Origin: Tabrizicola thermarum
GTDB lineage: Bacteria > Pseudomonadota > Alphaproteobacteria > Rhodobacterales > Rhodobacteraceae
Reading direction: 5' to 3'
Assembly (NCBI RefSeq): GCF_003574395.1
Contig: NZ_QMJY01000013.1
Location: 186,001-250,000, forward strand
Length of the DNA: 64,000 bases
Shown: positions 17,502 to 25,108 of the stretch, piece after piece
Layout of the letters: each line of letters begins with the position of its first letter
How positions within the stretch are numbered: position 1 is the first letter of the stretch
Position numbers and translations under genes: made by a program
Notes under the pieces: generated by a model
Database searches by the model: none
What the model saw: only the letters and a program-made list of their open reading frames with translations
Told to the model about the DNA's origin: nothing

Positions 17502-18347
17502 TCAGACCTTGTAGTCCGGCAAAGCCTCAAGCTCTTCCTTGGTCATGTCGACCCAGACGCGCACCGCGCCGCCTTCGGTCCTGGCCACCGTCAGACGATC
17601 CATCGGCAGAGCCACGGTCTTGACGCCCATCCCGAGAAAACCGCCGACGTCCAGAACCACGCCCGTCACCCGGCCTTCGGGCGAAAGCACCAGATCGGCG
17701 ACCTCGGCAATCGACGCATCGGTCGCATCGCGGACATCCGCACCGGTCAGGGTCTCGGCGGTCAGGGCGTCAAGGCCAATCGCGGTGTAGCCTTCGGGCA
17801 GCGTCATCGTGCCCTTGGCCGGGGCTGCTGCCATGCCGGTCCCGTCCGGGGCAACCATCGCCTCCGGAACAGTCTCCATGCCATTCCTGTCGGCGTCCGA
17901 GACGGCAGCGCGATCGCCCATCGCGGGTCGCAGATATGCCGGGGCGGCTTCCAGAGTGGCACGGTCAGTCTGCAACACCAGGAACCAGTCGTCGGCGTCG
18001 GTCGCATCGTCCTGCACGAACTTCAGCGCCGCCATGTCGACGGCAACCTGGCGCTCGCCGATCCCGAGGAACCCGCCGATGTCGACCAGCACTGCGTCAA
18101 CCGTGCCGTCGCGGCCCAGAAGCACGTCGTTCACTTCACCGATGTCGTCCCAGCCCTGCTGAACGCCGGCATAGGCATCCGCGTCCAGAGCGGCTTCGCT
18201 GACATAGACGCGCGCGCCGATGATGTCGGACGCATAGGCCGAAGGGCCGACAGGCTCGGCCTGGAACGGCGACATGGGGGCGTCCTGGGCGATGGCAGGC
18301 AGCACGAAACCGGCCGCCAGAGCGGTGGAAAGAAGCAGAGCTTTCAT
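17502..18347 (-). CDS. Secreted protein with two PRC-barrel domains
   Basis: A 281-residue exported protein. The signal peptide is MKALLLSTALAAGFVLPAIAQD, cleaved after AIAQ/A-type residues near 20. Two PRC-barrel repeats follow, one near residues 40-105 (GEVNDVLLGRDGTVDAVLVDIGGFLGIGE) and one near 205-270 (AEVADLVLSPEGRVTGVVLDVGGFLGMG), joined by an alanine- and proline-rich linker. An AGGAG SD precedes the ATG. The start was chosen for the signal peptide and SD; the frame stays open upstream. A perfect EcfG-type promoter lies 65 bp upstream. It is probably a periplasmic stress protein, but the ligand of the PRC domains is unknown. Confidence 0.88.
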   Translation of the reverse strand: MKALLLSTALAAGFVLPAIAQDAPMSPFQAEPVGPSAYASDIIGARVYVSEAALDADAYAGVQQGWDDIGEVNDVLLGRDGTVDAVLVDIGGFLGIGERQVAVDMAALKFVQDDATDADDWFLVLQTDRATLEAAPAYLRPAMGDRAAVSDADRNGMETVPEAMVAPDGTGMAAAPAKGTMTLPEGYTAIGLDALTAETLTGADVRDATDASIAEVADLVLSPEGRVTGVVLDVGGFLGMGVKTVALPMDRLTVARTEGGAVRVWVDMTKEELEALPDYKV

Positions 18348-18411: not shown

Positions 18412-18436
18412 AACGTTCCATGCCGCGGCGGGTTCC
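18412..18436 (-). promoter_or_regulatory. EcfG-type promoter of the PRC-barrel gene
   Basis: On the minus strand GGAAC (18436-18432) and CGTT (18415-18412) are separated by 16 bases, an exact match to the alphaproteobacterial general stress sigma factor pattern. The predicted 5' UTR is about 60 bases. It places the PRC-barrel gene under EcfG, encoded 1.4 kb away. Confidence 0.8.
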
Positions 18437-18633: not shown

Positions 18634-19443
18634 TCAGCGGTGCAACGTGTCGGTCGAAGAGAAGAACATCGCCTGGCTGACAGCCGAACGGACCTGTTCC
18701 TCGGTATAGGGCTTGTTGATCAGGAAGGCCGGTTCCGGTCGCGCGCCGGTCAGCAGTCGTTCGGGGAAGGCGGTGATGAAGATGACCGGGATGTCGCCGA
18801 ACTGGCCGAGGATGTCTTTCACCGCGTCGATGCCCGAAGAATTGTCCGCCAGCTGGATGTCGGCCAGGATCAGGTCCGGCCGCTCCGATGTCGCCATCCG
18901 CACCGCCTCGCGGTGGGTGCGCGCGGTCGCGGTCACGCGATGCCCCATGCCTTCGACGATCGCCGTGATGTCCATCGCGATGATCGCCTCGTCCTCGATC
19001 ACCAGGACCGACCCGCGCACCGACTGTTCCATCTCGCGCACGGCAATGTCGATCAGCCCGGCTGTCTCGTCGCCGGAAATCCCCATGATCGCCGCCACGT
19101 CCGCGGCCCCGAAGCCTTCGATCGTGGTCAGAAGCAACGCCTCGCGCGAATTGGGCGTCAGGGCGGCCAGATGCGCCTGCGCCTTGCCCGACAGATCGTC
19201 CTCCGCCTCGGCCACCGGCGCGCCCGAGGTCGTCCAGATCGAATGGAACACCGCAAACAGCGAAACCCGCGGGTCGCCATGCGCCGTCAGCAGGGCCGGA
19301 TCGGCAACGACGGCCTCCAGCACGGCCAGCGCATACTGGTCGCCGCTGGTCTGGTTTCCGGTCAGCGCCCGCGCATAGCGACGCAGATAGGGCAGCTGGC
19401 GCGCTACCGCCGCCGAGTGGTCGACCGCTTCCTGTGCGAGCAT
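18634..19443 (-). CDS. phyR: General stress response regulator PhyR
   Basis: PhyR is the anti-anti-sigma switch of the alphaproteobacterial general stress response: when phosphorylated, its sigma-like domain captures NepR and frees EcfG. The 269-residue protein has an N-terminal EcfG-like domain (residues 1-140; LPYLRRYARALTG at 17-29) and a C-terminal receiver domain (145-260) with acidic pocket IEDE (149-152), phospho-acceptor D195 in LILADIQLA, and the FxTAFPERLLTG motif characteristic of PhyR. The ATG at 19443 has a GGAG SD nine bases upstream; an in-frame ATG at 19458 has none. It is divergent from nepR-ecfG. Confidence 0.95.
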   Translation of the reverse strand: MLAQEAVDHSAAVARQLPYLRRYARALTGNQTSGDQYALAVLEAVVADPALLTAHGDPRVSLFAVFHSIWTTSGAPVAEAEDDLSGKAQAHLAALTPNSREALLLTTIEGFGAADVAAIMGISGDETAGLIDIAVREMEQSVRGSVLVIEDEAIIAMDITAIVEGMGHRVTATARTHREAVRMATSERPDLILADIQLADNSSGIDAVKDILGQFGDIPVIFITAFPERLLTGARPEPAFLINKPYTEEQVRSAVSQAMFFSSTDTLHR

Positions 19444-19489: not shown

Positions 19490-19514
19490 GGAACCAAACG
19501 CCAGGCCCCACGTT
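19490..19514 (+). promoter_or_regulatory. EcfG-type promoter, upstream copy, for nepR-ecfG
   Basis: GGAAC at 19490-19494, 16 bases, then CGTT at 19511-19514: an exact match to the EcfG consensus on the plus strand. It overlaps the oppositely directed phyR promoter (19497-19521) almost completely. Confidence 0.8.
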
Positions 19515-19521
19515 CGGTTCC
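19497..19521 (-). promoter_or_regulatory. EcfG-type promoter of phyR
   Basis: On the minus strand GGAAC (19521-19517), 16 bases, CGTT (19500-19497). An exact consensus match; the predicted 5' UTR to the phyR ATG at 19443 is about 47 bases. It indicates that phyR transcription is fed back by EcfG. Confidence 0.82.
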
Positions 19522-19560
19522 CGACGCGATCTGAAAAAATCGCAAGGGGTGAAAATGTTC

Positions 19561-19585
19561 GGAACCAGAGGCGCCCAGGGGCGTT
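19561..19585 (+). promoter_or_regulatory. EcfG-type promoter, proximal copy, for nepR-ecfG
   Basis: GGAAC at 19561-19565, 16 bases, CGTT at 19582-19585, a second exact match on the plus strand, 71 bp downstream of the first. The nepR ATG (19614) lies about 22 bases after the expected transcription start. Confidence 0.82.
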
Positions 19586-19613
19586 GGGGGCCGAAAGAAG
19601 CGGGAAGCCAGCA

Positions 19614-19790
19614 ATGACGAAAGACAAGAACGAGGATGGTGTCGACCGCCGGGCCATCCGGGCGCAGATCGACGAAAACCTCAGGCTGGTCTACCGCGAG
19701 GCCCTGAGCGAGGAGTTGCCCGACCGCTTTCGCGATCTTCTTGCCCAGCTCAAGGCGAAGGACGGCAGCGGCAAGGGCGGCACGGAATGA
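19614..19790 (+). CDS. nepR: Anti-sigma factor NepR
   Basis: NepR binds and inhibits EcfG and is titrated away by phosphorylated PhyR. The 58-residue protein carries the conserved NepR helix, IRAQIDENLRLVYREALSEE followed by LPDRFRDLLAQL (residues 14-45). The start MTKDKNEDG has a GGGAAG SD; the frame is open ten codons further upstream without an SD. Its stop overlaps the ecfG ATG (ATGA), so inhibitor and sigma factor are made in step. Confidence 0.93.
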   Translation: MTKDKNEDGVDRRAIRAQIDENLRLVYREALSEELPDRFRDLLAQLKAKDGSGKGGTE

Positions 19791-20368
19791 GCGGCGGCGG
19801 CGTTCCCCCGGCACCCGCCGACCCGCGCGACCGCCTGGCCGGGGCCATTCCCAGGCTGCGCGCCTTCGCAATCAGCCTCACGCGGGATGTGTCGCGGGCC
19901 GATGACCTGGTGCAGGAAACCATCCTGAAGGCCTGGACCAACATCGACAAGTTCGACCCGGCGACCAATCTGGACGCCTGGCTGTTCACGATCCTGCGCA
20001 ACACCTTCTATTCCGGCCTGCGCAAGACCCGGCGCGAGGTGCAGGACAGCGATGGCGTCCACGCGGCCACGCTTTCGGTCAAGCCCGATCACGATGGCCG
20101 GTTGGCGCTGAAGGAATTCCAGCGCGCCTTCGACCAGCTTAGCCCCGAGCACCGCGAAGTGCTGATCCTGGTCGGCGCTTCGGGTTTTTCCTGCGAAGAG
20201 GCGGCGGCAATGATGGGCGTGGCGGTCGGCACCGTCAAAAGCCGCGCCAGCCGGGCCCGCAGCCGTCTGGCCGAGATGCTGCATCTCAAGGCGGGCGAAT
20301 CCCTGTTCTCGGGTAGTGATGGGGCGACACAGGCGGTCGTGCTGCGCTCGGCAGCGGCCGGATCTTGA
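19787..20368 (+). CDS. ecfG: General stress ECF sigma factor EcfG
   Basis: An ECF-family RNA polymerase sigma factor (group ECF15 by context), 193 residues. Region sigma-2 is SRADDLVQETILKAWTNIDKF (residues 36-56) followed by LDAWLFTILRNTFYS. Region sigma-4, with its helix-turn-helix, is LSPEHREVLILVGASGFSCEE and AAAMMGVAVGTVKSRASRAR (about 118-157). It is co-translated with nepR and overlaps the TTG start of the kinase gene. The exact EcfG-type promoters in front of its own operon imply positive autoregulation. Confidence 0.95.
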   Translation: MSGGGVPPAPADPRDRLAGAIPRLRAFAISLTRDVSRADDLVQETILKAWTNIDKFDPATNLDAWLFTILRNTFYSGLRKTRREVQDSDGVHAATLSVKPDHDGRLALKEFQRAFDQLSPEHREVLILVGASGFSCEEAAAMMGVAVGTVKSRASRARSRLAEMLHLKAGESLFSGSDGATQAVVLRSAAAGS

Positions 20369-22065
20369 TCGGACGCTGGAAATCCTTCCTGTCCAACAGC
20401 AGCCTTGGCGTCCGCCTCGGCTCGACCATCATCATCGCGCTCTTGCCGCTGGGAGCCCTGTCGATCCTCCAGACCCGCGATGCGCTGGATCAGATCGACC
20501 AGTCGACCCTGAAAGGGGTCGGCGGCGCTGCCCTGCAATCCGTCCGTGAGCAGATCGAGGTCATCAAGGAAGCGCAGGTTTCGGCGCGCGTCCTGGCATC
20601 GGTGCTGGCGCGGCCCTCGATCGGCGGCGGCCCATCCTGCATGGATCAGGTCACCGCCATTGCGCGCGACATTCCGCAGGCCACGCTTGTCGCCTATGTG
20701 CCGAAAAGCGGCCTTCTGACCTGTTCCTCCGACGGCCGGGTCCATGACCTGTCCGCCGATCCCGCGTTCCGGCAGATGATCTCGCTGCCGGTGCCGGGCC
20801 TCGTCTACGACCCGCACAGCAGCATTTCGAACCGTGCGATCCTTGGTGTGCGGCACCCGGTCTTCGACGCGGACGGCGTGCTGACAGGGTTCGTCGTCAT
20901 CTCGCTGGCCTACAGCACCATCTCGCCGTCCGCCTACGGAGACGGCGATTCGGTCGCCGAGTGGAACCCCGAATACCTTGCAACCCTGACGTCCGGCGGC
21001 GAGGTCCTGGTGTCCTCCGCCCCCGATGTCCGGCTGCAACAGGCCGTTCCCGGCATCGGCGAAGCGCCGGAGTTCAAGGGCATGACGGACACCGCGCGCT
21101 TTGTCGAGACGCCCGACGGTCGCCGCATCGTCTCGGTCGTGCCGATCGCCCGCGACCTGTTCCTCCTGTCCGTCTGGAAACAGGACAGCGCCAGCTTCTG
21201 GACGAACGCCGCCATTCCCTACACCATCCCCGCCCTGACCTGGATGGCAGCTCTCGCCGCCGCCGCCTTCGCCTCCAGCCGTCTCGTGGTTCGGCATGTC
21301 CGCGCCCTTGCCCGGTCGATGTCCGACTATGTCACGTCCCGCAAGCGGGTGCTCATTCCCGACATCAGCGGCGCGCCGCACGAGATTCAGCGACTGTACC
21401 ATGCCTACGAAAGCCTGATCCGGACCATCGAACAGGAAGAGGCCGAACTGCAGAACCTCTTGCTCGACAAGGACACCCTCCTGCGCGAGATCGACCATCG
21501 CAGCGGCAACAGCCTGCAGATCATGGCCTCGGTGATGCGGATGTACCGGCGCGAGACGACGGACCCCGAATTGCGCCGGGTGCTGGACGGCCTCATCAAC
21601 CGGGTGATCGCGCTGTCGTCCACCCATACCAGCCTTTACGCGATGGCGGGCCGGCAGGACATCGCGGTGGACATGGTGCTGAGCAACGTGGTCAAGCGGC
21701 TGAAGGAGATCCACGGCGTCGGACTCGGGGTTGCGAACAAGCAGTTCCAGCCGGTGCGGATGGATGCCCAATCCGCCGTGCCGCTTGCGCTTGCCCTGGC
21801 CGAGACGGTGGGCTGCTACTTCTCGCGGCCGGGGCTGACGGAACAGGCGGTTCTCGTGTCGCTGTCCGAAGCCGACGGCAAGGTGCATCTGCGCGTCGAA
21901 GGGCCGGTGGTGCCAGAGCTTCTGCCCGGCACGACCTCGGGCCTGTCGGCGCTGCCGCAACGGATGCTGCGCCAGTTCGCGGCGCAACTGGGCGGGACGG
22001 TGTCCCTGCGGCGGGATGGCGAGGTCATCACCGTCGAACTTGCCTTCCCGCGACAGCCGACCTGA
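20365..22065 (+). CDS. Membrane HWE/HisKA_2-type sensor kinase of the GSR locus (degenerate ATPase domain)
   Basis: A 566-residue sensor with a TTG start overlapping the ecfG stop. Transmembrane helices are at about 18-36 and 284-304, enclosing a ~245-residue periplasmic sensor region (Cache-like by layout). The dimerisation and phospho-acceptor segment REIDHRSGNSLQIMASVMRM keeps the histidine (H378). The ATPase part is unusual: the expected N-box Asn is Cys484 (LALALAETVGCYFSRPG) and the DxGxG box is replaced by RVEGPVVPELLPG (510-522), while the distal GLSALPQRMLRQFAAQLGG block is kept. By context it should control PhyR phosphorylation, either as kinase, as phosphatase or as a partner of another kinase. 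Confidence 0.85.
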   Translation: MIGRWKSFLSNSSLGVRLGSTIIIALLPLGALSILQTRDALDQIDQSTLKGVGGAALQSVREQIEVIKEAQVSARVLASVLARPSIGGGPSCMDQVTAIARDIPQATLVAYVPKSGLLTCSSDGRVHDLSADPAFRQMISLPVPGLVYDPHSSISNRAILGVRHPVFDADGVLTGFVVISLAYSTISPSAYGDGDSVAEWNPEYLATLTSGGEVLVSSAPDVRLQQAVPGIGEAPEFKGMTDTARFVETPDGRRIVSVVPIARDLFLLSVWKQDSASFWTNAAIPYTIPALTWMAALAAAAFASSRLVVRHVRALARSMSDYVTSRKRVLIPDISGAPHEIQRLYHAYESLIRTIEQEEAELQNLLLDKDTLLREIDHRSGNSLQIMASVMRMYRRETTDPELRRVLDGLINRVIALSSTHTSLYAMAGRQDIAVDMVLSNVVKRLKEIHGVGLGVANKQFQPVRMDAQSAVPLALALAETVGCYFSRPGLTEQAVLVSLSEADGKVHLRVEGPVVPELLPGTTSGLSALPQRMLRQFAAQLGGTVSLRRDGEVITVELAFPRQPT

Positions 22066-23019: not shown

Positions 23020-23434
23020 CCGGGCTTCCTTCCTGTCTGAAACCGGCCCGCACCGCCTGCGCATCGCGCCGAAGGCCATCGAGGAACCGGCGCGGTTTCC
23101 GCCCGCGCAGCTGCACTTCCGACCGCCCCGCCAGCCCCAGCAAAAGCGCGACCAGCGCAAGGACCAACCCGACCGCAAGCGCCGCGCCGACGGCGCCAAG
23201 GCCCGCCTCCACCAGCGCCGCGACCGCTGCCCCGGCAAGAAGGTTCAGCGCGACCAGCGCGATCACCCCTGCCGCCGCAAGCTTCGCCAGCCCCGCACCG
23301 ACCGAGCGCAGGCTGTCGGCCGCCTCGGCCCGGGCAAGCCGAAGCTCGCCCTGCACCAGACGCCCGACAGCCGCCAGGACCTCCGAGAACAGCCCGGCGA
23401 CGCCCGTGTCGCTTTCAGGCGACTGATCGCGCAT
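23012..23434 (-). CDS. Phage-holin-superfamily (DUF1469-like) membrane protein
   Basis: A 140-residue protein with two long hydrophobic helices (ALVALNLLAGAAVAALVEAG and GAALAVGLVLALVALLLGLAG, residues about 58-100), an acidic amphipathic N-terminal segment and a basic C-terminus. This is the layout of the chromosomal 'phage holin family' proteins. No phage genes are nearby, so it is not evidence of a prophage. It overlaps both neighbours (TGATG with the upstream gene), so the three are co-translated. Confidence 0.8.
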   Translation of the reverse strand: MRDQSPESDTGVAGLFSEVLAAVGRLVQGELRLARAEAADSLRSVGAGLAKLAAAGVIALVALNLLAGAAVAALVEAGLGAVGAALAVGLVLALVALLLGLAGRSEVQLRGRKPRRFLDGLRRDAQAVRAGFRQEGSPDV

Positions 23435-23976
23435 CAGAGACCGGGTCCCCGACCCGCTTCCTGCGACGACACACGGCGCGCACGCGCAGCAGACGACCGC
23501 ACGAAACGCGCGGCGGCAAAGCCCACGACGGCGGCGGCCGCCATGAAGGCACCCGGATGCCGCCTGGCCAGCGTCCTGATGTCGGCGGCCAGATCGCTTA
23601 CCGACCTGTCGCGCAGCGCATCCGACGCGCTGGTCAGACCCTGTGCCACCGAGGACAGCACCCGCGACCGCAGCGCATCGCCCTCCGCTTCGGCCGAGGC
23701 GCGCTCCAGCGTGGCCGCCAGCCGTTCGCCCGCATCCGACAGGCTTTCGCGCGCCGCATCGGCCTTTTCGACGGCCACGTCCTTCACGGTCTCGAAGGTC
23801 GACCCCGCGCCTGAAACGATGGCCGCCTTGGCGTCCGCCACCTTGCGCCTGATCGTATCGACACCGGACTCGACCGCATCGGTCGCCGTGTCGGTCATCT
23901 CGCGCGCGGTGTCGCCCGCAGTGTCAAGCGCGCGCATCACCTTGTCTTCCGAAGTCTGCTTGTAGATCTGGGTCAT
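23434..23976 (-). CDS. YtxH/apolipoprotein-like stress protein with C-terminal membrane segment
   Basis: A 180-residue, alanine- and charge-rich, mostly helical protein with repeated amphipathic segments (for example TAREMTDTATDAVESGVDTI) that resemble LEA/apolipoprotein-type and YtxH-like proteins. A hydrophobic segment (GAFMAAAAVVGFAAARFV, about 142-159) follows ADIRTLARRHP. It is the first gene of the DUF3618/holin-like operon, with an AGGAG SD and a putative EcfG promoter at 24044-24068. Function unknown; a role in envelope stress protection is inferred from context. Confidence 0.72.
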   Translation of the reverse strand: MTQIYKQTSEDKVMRALDTAGDTAREMTDTATDAVESGVDTIRRKVADAKAAIVSGAGSTFETVKDVAVEKADAARESLSDAGERLAATLERASAEAEGDALRSRVLSSVAQGLTSASDALRDRSVSDLAADIRTLARRHPGAFMAAAAVVGFAAARFVRSSAARARRVSSQEAGRGPGL

Positions 23977-24043: not shown

Positions 24044-24068
24044 AACCCCGCGCAGGCGATCCGGTTCC
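24044..24068 (-). promoter_or_regulatory. Candidate EcfG-type promoter of the envelope-stress operon
   Basis: On the minus strand GGAAC (24068-24064), 16 bases, then GGTT (24047-24044). It differs from the consensus CGTT at one position. The predicted 5' UTR is about 65 bases. Confidence 0.5.
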
Positions 24069-24491: not shown

Positions 24492-24989
24492 TCAGTTGGC
24501 AACGGCGGTCAAGACCACCAGCCTCACGTCGATGTTCTGGCGGTCCATCGTCGGCTGCATCCGGCGCAGGAACTGACGCAGCGCGCCGACCGAGGCGCCG
24601 GGCCGAACGGCAAGGTGGATGCTGCCGCCCGGCGCGCTGCGCAGCGCTGGCACGAAGGCCACGATCACCCGCATCAGCGCAAAGATCGCCGCACTGTCGG
24701 CACCGTCCCCTGCAAGCACCAGCCGGTCAAGCCGTCCCATCGCGCGCAGCTTGTCCTCCAGCATGGCCAGCGCCGCGCTTTGACCCGGATCGGCGCAGAC
24801 CAGCTCGGCCTCGGGAAAGGCTACCTCGGCCAGCGCCATGCGCAGGGGCGAGGTCCCGACAACGACCAGCCGGGTTGCGTCCGGCACCAGGTCCTGCCGG
24901 GACAGCAGCGACAGGGCCGCATCATTCGCCAGGGTCAAGGTCGGCGTCACGGTCGGCGTTCCTGTCGGGGTCTTGCCTCTGTCGGCCAT
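24492..24989 (-). CDS. Hypothetical 165-residue protein, Rossmann-like
   Basis: I do not recognise the family. The protein begins MADRGKTPTGTPTVTPTLTL, with a threonine/proline repeat, then shows an alternating strand/helix pattern: RLVVVGTSPLRMALAEVAFP (strand-turn-helix near 38-57), ELVCADPGQSAAL with an acidic residue after the second strand (58-70), DRLVLAGDGADSAAIFALMR, and SIHLAVRPGASVGALRQFLR. This resembles a SAM- or NAD-binding Rossmann fold without the usual glycine-rich motif. The start at 24989 has a GGAGAGGA SD. An exact EcfG promoter lies about 40 bp upstream, divergent from the AI-2E-type permease. Confidence 0.6.
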   Translation of the reverse strand: MADRGKTPTGTPTVTPTLTLANDAALSLLSRQDLVPDATRLVVVGTSPLRMALAEVAFPEAELVCADPGQSAALAMLEDKLRAMGRLDRLVLAGDGADSAAIFALMRVIVAFVPALRSAPGGSIHLAVRPGASVGALRQFLRRMQPTMDRQNIDVRLVVLTAVAN

Positions 24990-25082: not shown

Positions 25083-25108
25083 GGAACCGGACCCACCCGC
25101 CGTGCGTT
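25083..25108 (+). promoter_or_regulatory. EcfG-type promoter of the AI-2E-family permease gene
   Basis: GGAAC at 25083-25087, 17 bases, CGTT at 25105-25108, about 30 bp before the ATG at 25139. Back-to-back with the opposite promoter at 25030-25055. Confidence 0.72.

Follow-up and report, generated by a model that had tools for sequence, protein, structure and literature searches.

An interlocked pair of divergent EcfG-type promoters between phyR and nepR-ecfG, conserved across most of the Rhodobacterales

The window, that is, the whole stretch of 64,000 nucleotides of Tabrizicola thermarum DNA that was analysed, carries the alphaproteobacterial PhyR-NepR-EcfG module at one locus and in divergent order. 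On the minus strand, phyR (18634-19443) encodes a PhyR-type anti-anti-sigma response regulator with sigma-like and receiver domains (PF22029, 1.6e-24; PF22233; Response_reg; NF006623, 353 bits), and its start codon at 19443 has a GGAG ahead of it. On the plus strand, nepR (19614-19790; PF18557, 53.6 bits), encoding the anti-sigma factor, is followed by ecfG (19787-20368), encoding an ECF15-type sigma factor (sigma-70 r2 and r4_2; NF009198, 294.9 bits, cut-off 270), and by the gene of a PhyK-like histidine kinase of the HisKA_2/HWE type (20365-22065; PF07568, 53.2 bits; NF051872, 119 bits, under the cut-off of 750), the start of ecfG overlapping the nepR stop and the start of the kinase gene the ecfG stop. 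The divergent arrangement of phyR and nepR-ecfG is the standard layout of the alphaproteobacterial general stress response locus, and it is textbook knowledge that both units are under EcfG control. The response depends on the proportions in which PhyR, NepR and EcfG are present, and its known feedback is the autoregulation of sigma-EcfG.

Between the two units, direct reading and a pattern search found three exact matches to the EcfG-type (ECF15) promoter, GGAAC-N16/17-CGTT, all with a 16-nucleotide spacer. The first, P1(+), faces nepR-ecfG on the plus strand (19490-19514; GGAAC at 19490-19494, CGTT at 19511-19514), and the second, P(-), faces phyR on the minus strand (19497-19521; GGAAC at 19521-19517, CGTT at 19500-19497). 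The two have 18 bp in common (19497-19514), and the –10 box of each lies 2 bp from the –35 box of the other, so that together they form a single interlocked element of 32 bp (19490-19521, GGAACCAAACGCCAGGCCCCACGTTCGGTTCC), laid out as GGAACC-A-AACG-N10-CGTT-C-GGTTCC and readable as the inverted repeat GGAACCAAACG-N10-CGTTCGGTTCC. The third match, P2(+) (19561-19585; GGAAC at 19561-19565, CGTT at 19582-19585), stands in tandem 71 bp downstream of P1 and overlaps neither. Transcripts are predicted to start near 19522 from P1, near 19489 from P(-) and near 19593 from P2, with leaders of about 92, 46 and 21 nt, respectively, and EcfG itself would be expected to drive both interlocked promoters. 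A preliminary description of this DNA had reported opposite EcfG promoters sharing 18 bp and a free second plus-strand copy, and each of these points is exact. It had also held that RNA polymerase cannot occupy both overlapping promoters at once; this is a geometrically sound prediction from the overlap of the promoter cores, since with each –10 box two bases from the opposite –35 box the two orientations should be mutually exclusive.

By chance, a stretch with the length (155 bp) and base composition of this intergenic DNA would contain about 0.001 matches per strand and about 4e-7 overlapping pairs. Over the whole window, six exact matches to GGAAC-N16/17-CGTT were counted against 0.80 expected, a number reached by none of 100 shuffles. 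Across the genome as a whole there is no enrichment of the motif (53 occurrences vs 77 for the reversed control), and single matches elsewhere therefore mean little; the case rests on the locus and on its conservation. One other divergent exact pair occurs in the window, at 25055-25030 (–) and 25083-25108 (+), with a gap of 27 bp between the two promoters, which gives no support to a general rule of interlocking for divergent EcfG targets. This pair lies between a gene for an AI-2E family transporter (start 25139, +) and a gene at 24492-24989 (–) for which no Pfam match was found.

Conservation was followed in two sets of loci. The first comprises 80 Rhodobacterales phyR loci from one search together with the window (81 in all) and is biased to close relatives. 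An inverted pair of –35 boxes, with exact GGAAC and GTTCC 21 to 23 bp apart, is present in 80 of the 81. The –10 box is CGTT in 61 loci on the nepR side and in 66 on the phyR side, and the other boxes are mostly single-base variants (AGTT, TGTT, CATT or GGTT, for example), so that both promoter directions are conserved about equally. Comparison of the spacing across the order, as the preliminary description had proposed, was made on the best promoter pair of each locus, with at most two mismatches in all; the two promoters are offset by 7 bp in 60 loci and by 5-6 bp in 18. Within the former group the spacers of the two promoters are 16/16 (n = 28), 17/17 (n = 22) or mixed (n = 10).

Because of the bias of this set, a second, order-wide draw was made from the phyR loci of 293 genomes of the order. 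Ninety loci from 62 genera were examined, hand-picked among the matches listed and mostly one per genus, so that the resulting fraction is an estimate. The interlock is present in 78 of them, 37 in strict form, 38 near consensus (–35 boxes exact, –10 boxes differing at one or two positions) and three weak, while 12 are without it; in 57 of the 62 genera at least one locus shows it. Absence from close relatives had been named in the preliminary description as one finding that would speak against its reading, and the arrangement proved instead to be widespread in the order. Taken with the 4e-7 expected pairs, this order-wide conservation rules out a chance origin. When 45 dyads of the N22 class were aligned, the pairwise identity was 87% in the promoter elements, 35% in the central 10 bp and 35% in the flanks; both sets of promoter elements are thus retained while the DNA between them has diverged as much as the surroundings. 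The exact dyad pattern occurs in 52 of the 293 genomes, in one copy each, and in none of the reversed controls, and all eight exact matches that were opened (L081-L088) lie between phyR and nepR-ecfG. A search of the whole class for the exact interlock returned, apart from the window's own genome, a single genome (G495), which belongs to another family. Its dyad (L089, 1501-1532) lies between the gene of a single-domain response regulator, upstream of which it stands, and a gluconolactonase-like gene; both neighbours are on one strand, and this is therefore not a phyR/nepR-ecfG locus.

The overlap varies among lineages in several ways. It is tighter in the genera g8 and g13, while several of the 12 loci without the interlock have a promoter on the nepR side only, so that the interlock is dispensable. 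A nepR-side match alone was found in all sampled loci of g7 and g12 and in one g24 locus, and a phyR-side match alone in one g61 locus. In L003 and G175, both of the window's genus, the overlapping nepR-side promoter is gone while the phyR-side promoter and P2 are retained (in L003 P2 stands at the corresponding place), which indicates that the interlock can be lost once a free promoter is present. P2 is itself restricted to a Tabrizicola-like group (the window, L001-L007, L009 and L011); it lies 70-72 bp from P1 in the window, L001, L002, L004-L007, L009 and L011, and its –10 box is AGTT in L007 and L009. L019 has a separate second promoter copy at +95, and P2 is missing from L046 (C. johrii). 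P2 would thus be a later acquisition of the Tabrizicola-like clade, which could give nepR-ecfG a start outside the competition. Natural variants in which the overlap is absent or tighter, one side has been lost or a free promoter has been added are thus available in related genomes.

The lineages that keep the nepR side alone raise the question of whether only that direction matters, the phyR-side match being weak or unused and preserved merely by the near-palindromic shape of the site. In Rhodobacter sphaeroides the locus (RSP_1274 to RSP_1271) has the same gene order and bears on this. In the accessible part of the published study, differential RNA-seq maps a transcript start ahead of the nepR homologue, and the text mentions none for phyR; under membrane stress ecfG mRNA rises, which requires PhyR, but phyR mRNA does not, the two mRNAs respond to different stresses, and promoter overlap is not discussed there (PMC5830050). 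Expression of phyR and ecfG, as described in that text, is thus uncoordinated and speaks against simple co-induction in this species, unless another phyR promoter masks it. The sister species C. johrii (L046) carries an intact, exact interlock. Against a single working direction stand the –10 box of the phyR side, as well conserved as that of the nepR side although the nepR-side promoter needs no base of it, and the loci that retain the phyR-side match without an overlapping nepR-side one (L003, G175 and the g61 locus). We therefore consider a one-way element quite improbable, and take from R. sphaeroides that the phyR side of a bidirectional promoter may be weak there or masked by another promoter.

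Outside the Rhodobacterales the two promoters usually point away from each other and share no sequence. The –35 boxes are 6-9 bp apart in five loci of other orders (L098, L099, L103, L108 and L115) and farther apart in two more (L095 and L097). With the non-overlapping pair in the window, these arrangements show that overlap is no automatic result of divergence. Two loci of family f42 (L117 and L118) have an overlapping pair of different geometry, with –10 boxes CATT and CGTT. The strong dyad symmetry of the interlock (GGAACC-n-AACG...CGTT-n-GGTTCC) could also suggest the operator of a dimeric regulator instead of a pair of promoters. We judged this reading very improbable indeed: each half fits the –35 and –10 elements of EcfG at promoter spacing, there is a single copy per genome, and in the seven loci of other orders listed above the same elements are split into two promoters that do not overlap. 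In three of those loci (L103, L108 and L115) a run of T follows the –35 box, for example GGAACTTTTTTTT, a feature missing from the interlocked elements of the Rhodobacterales.

EcfG-type promoters on both the phyR and the nepR-ecfG units have been reported for Alphaproteobacteria, and the accessible parts of these reports describe an EcfG-dependent, autoregulated locus with the same genes, the same divergent order and one such promoter per unit, but as two promoters and not as one interlocked element (PMC4814048; PMC8103513). The literature searched, in which few subscription journals were covered, contains no description of overlapping or bidirectional EcfG promoters or of the geometry and conservation of the interlock; the geometry is real and conserved and, within that coverage, apparently undescribed in a well-known regulatory locus. 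The interlock would also resemble the bidirectional promoters of Escherichia coli and other prokaryotes studied by Warman, Grainger and colleagues, in which pseudo-symmetric DNA accepts RNA polymerase in two exclusive orientations and yields divergent mRNAs. Promoters of that type use the housekeeping sigma factor and have one symmetric –10 element in common, and their starts mostly lie 10-23 bp from each other (PMC12825309). The interlock differs in that its two CGTT boxes are separate elements, 10 bp apart and each beside the –35 box of the other promoter, that its starts are predicted to lie about 33 bp apart, and that it would be read by an ECF sigma factor encoded in one of the units under its control.

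With its sequence, conservation and distribution among lineages established, the interlock is probably a bidirectional promoter, conserved in the order, that is used by EcfG, the sigma factor of the general stress response; its sigma specificity, its activity in both directions and the exclusion with its consequences are what we infer. Free EcfG would bring RNA polymerase onto the one 32-bp site facing either phyR or nepR-ecfG, and an open complex on one promoter would melt the –35 region of the other, leaving room for one polymerase at a time. Activation of EcfG would then raise expression both of phyR, the gene of the activator, and of the nepR-ecfG(-kinase) operon. At low EcfG activity the exclusion would have little effect, whereas at very high activity it would mainly cap the output and hold the division between phyR and nepR-ecfG constant. 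The stress response is little studied in the Rhodobacterales, and a single conserved element serving the two halves of the switch would offer a clean natural test of regulatory polymerase exclusion at bidirectional promoters.

Whether competition is more than a by-product of this architecture is less certain. That promoter competition balances PhyR against NepR-EcfG, as the preliminary description had proposed, is possible; stated as the cause of the balance it is not supported, because at their basal strength five E. coli bidirectional promoters are too weak for competition (PMC12825309), because in the accessible text on R. sphaeroides phyR mRNA is not raised with ecfG mRNA (PMC5830050), and because P2, free of overlap, would loosen any fixed ratio. 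Nor does the label of feedback suit it: a fixed ratio is no feedback, and the actual feedback lies in the autoregulation of sigma-EcfG mentioned at the outset. It seems rather unlikely that competition is the selected function, whether by fixing the ratio of PhyR to NepR-EcfG or by allowing repression of one unit by the other, across the range in which the stress response works. Points in its favour are the conservation of the interlock across most of the order, the recurrence of overlap in other forms (the different geometry in f42, the tighter one in g8 and g13), the competition demonstrated in E. coli once one side of a bidirectional promoter is strongly activated (PMC12825309), and an occupancy model in which the ratio of mutually exclusive promoters does not change with the EcfG level, whereas that of independent promoters of unequal strength does. 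Adding P2 to that model makes the ratio variable once more, running from 2 to 3 when the strengths are equal, and single-promoter lineages break a fixed ratio as well; the uncoordinated R. sphaeroides mRNAs point the same way, and conservation could also reflect lock-in, as a substitution or indel within the 18 bp in common can affect both promoters. Unlikely, too, is the broader idea that one site of a self-controlled sigma factor, with its two exclusive orientations, serves as a ratio setter, holding the split between PhyR and NepR-EcfG constant at any active EcfG level and the partner switch within its range, while lineages tune it by a weaker –10 box or by a free promoter such as P2.

Further matches to the EcfG-type motif were seen in and around the locus. 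In L001, L002, L004 and L006 an exact match on the phyR strand lies inside nepR, at a distance of about 250-290 bp from the start of phyR; it does not occur in the window and may reflect no more than the coding sequence of a conserved part of nepR. In the window, a near-consensus match with GGTT (24044-24068, –) stands upstream of a gene of 180 aa (23434-23976, –), whose only Pfam match is apolipoprotein-like and sub-threshold. Just beyond the end of phyR, an exact match (18412-18436, –) precedes a gene with a PRC-barrel domain (17502-18338, –), which suggests that targets of the stress response are clustered around the phyR locus.
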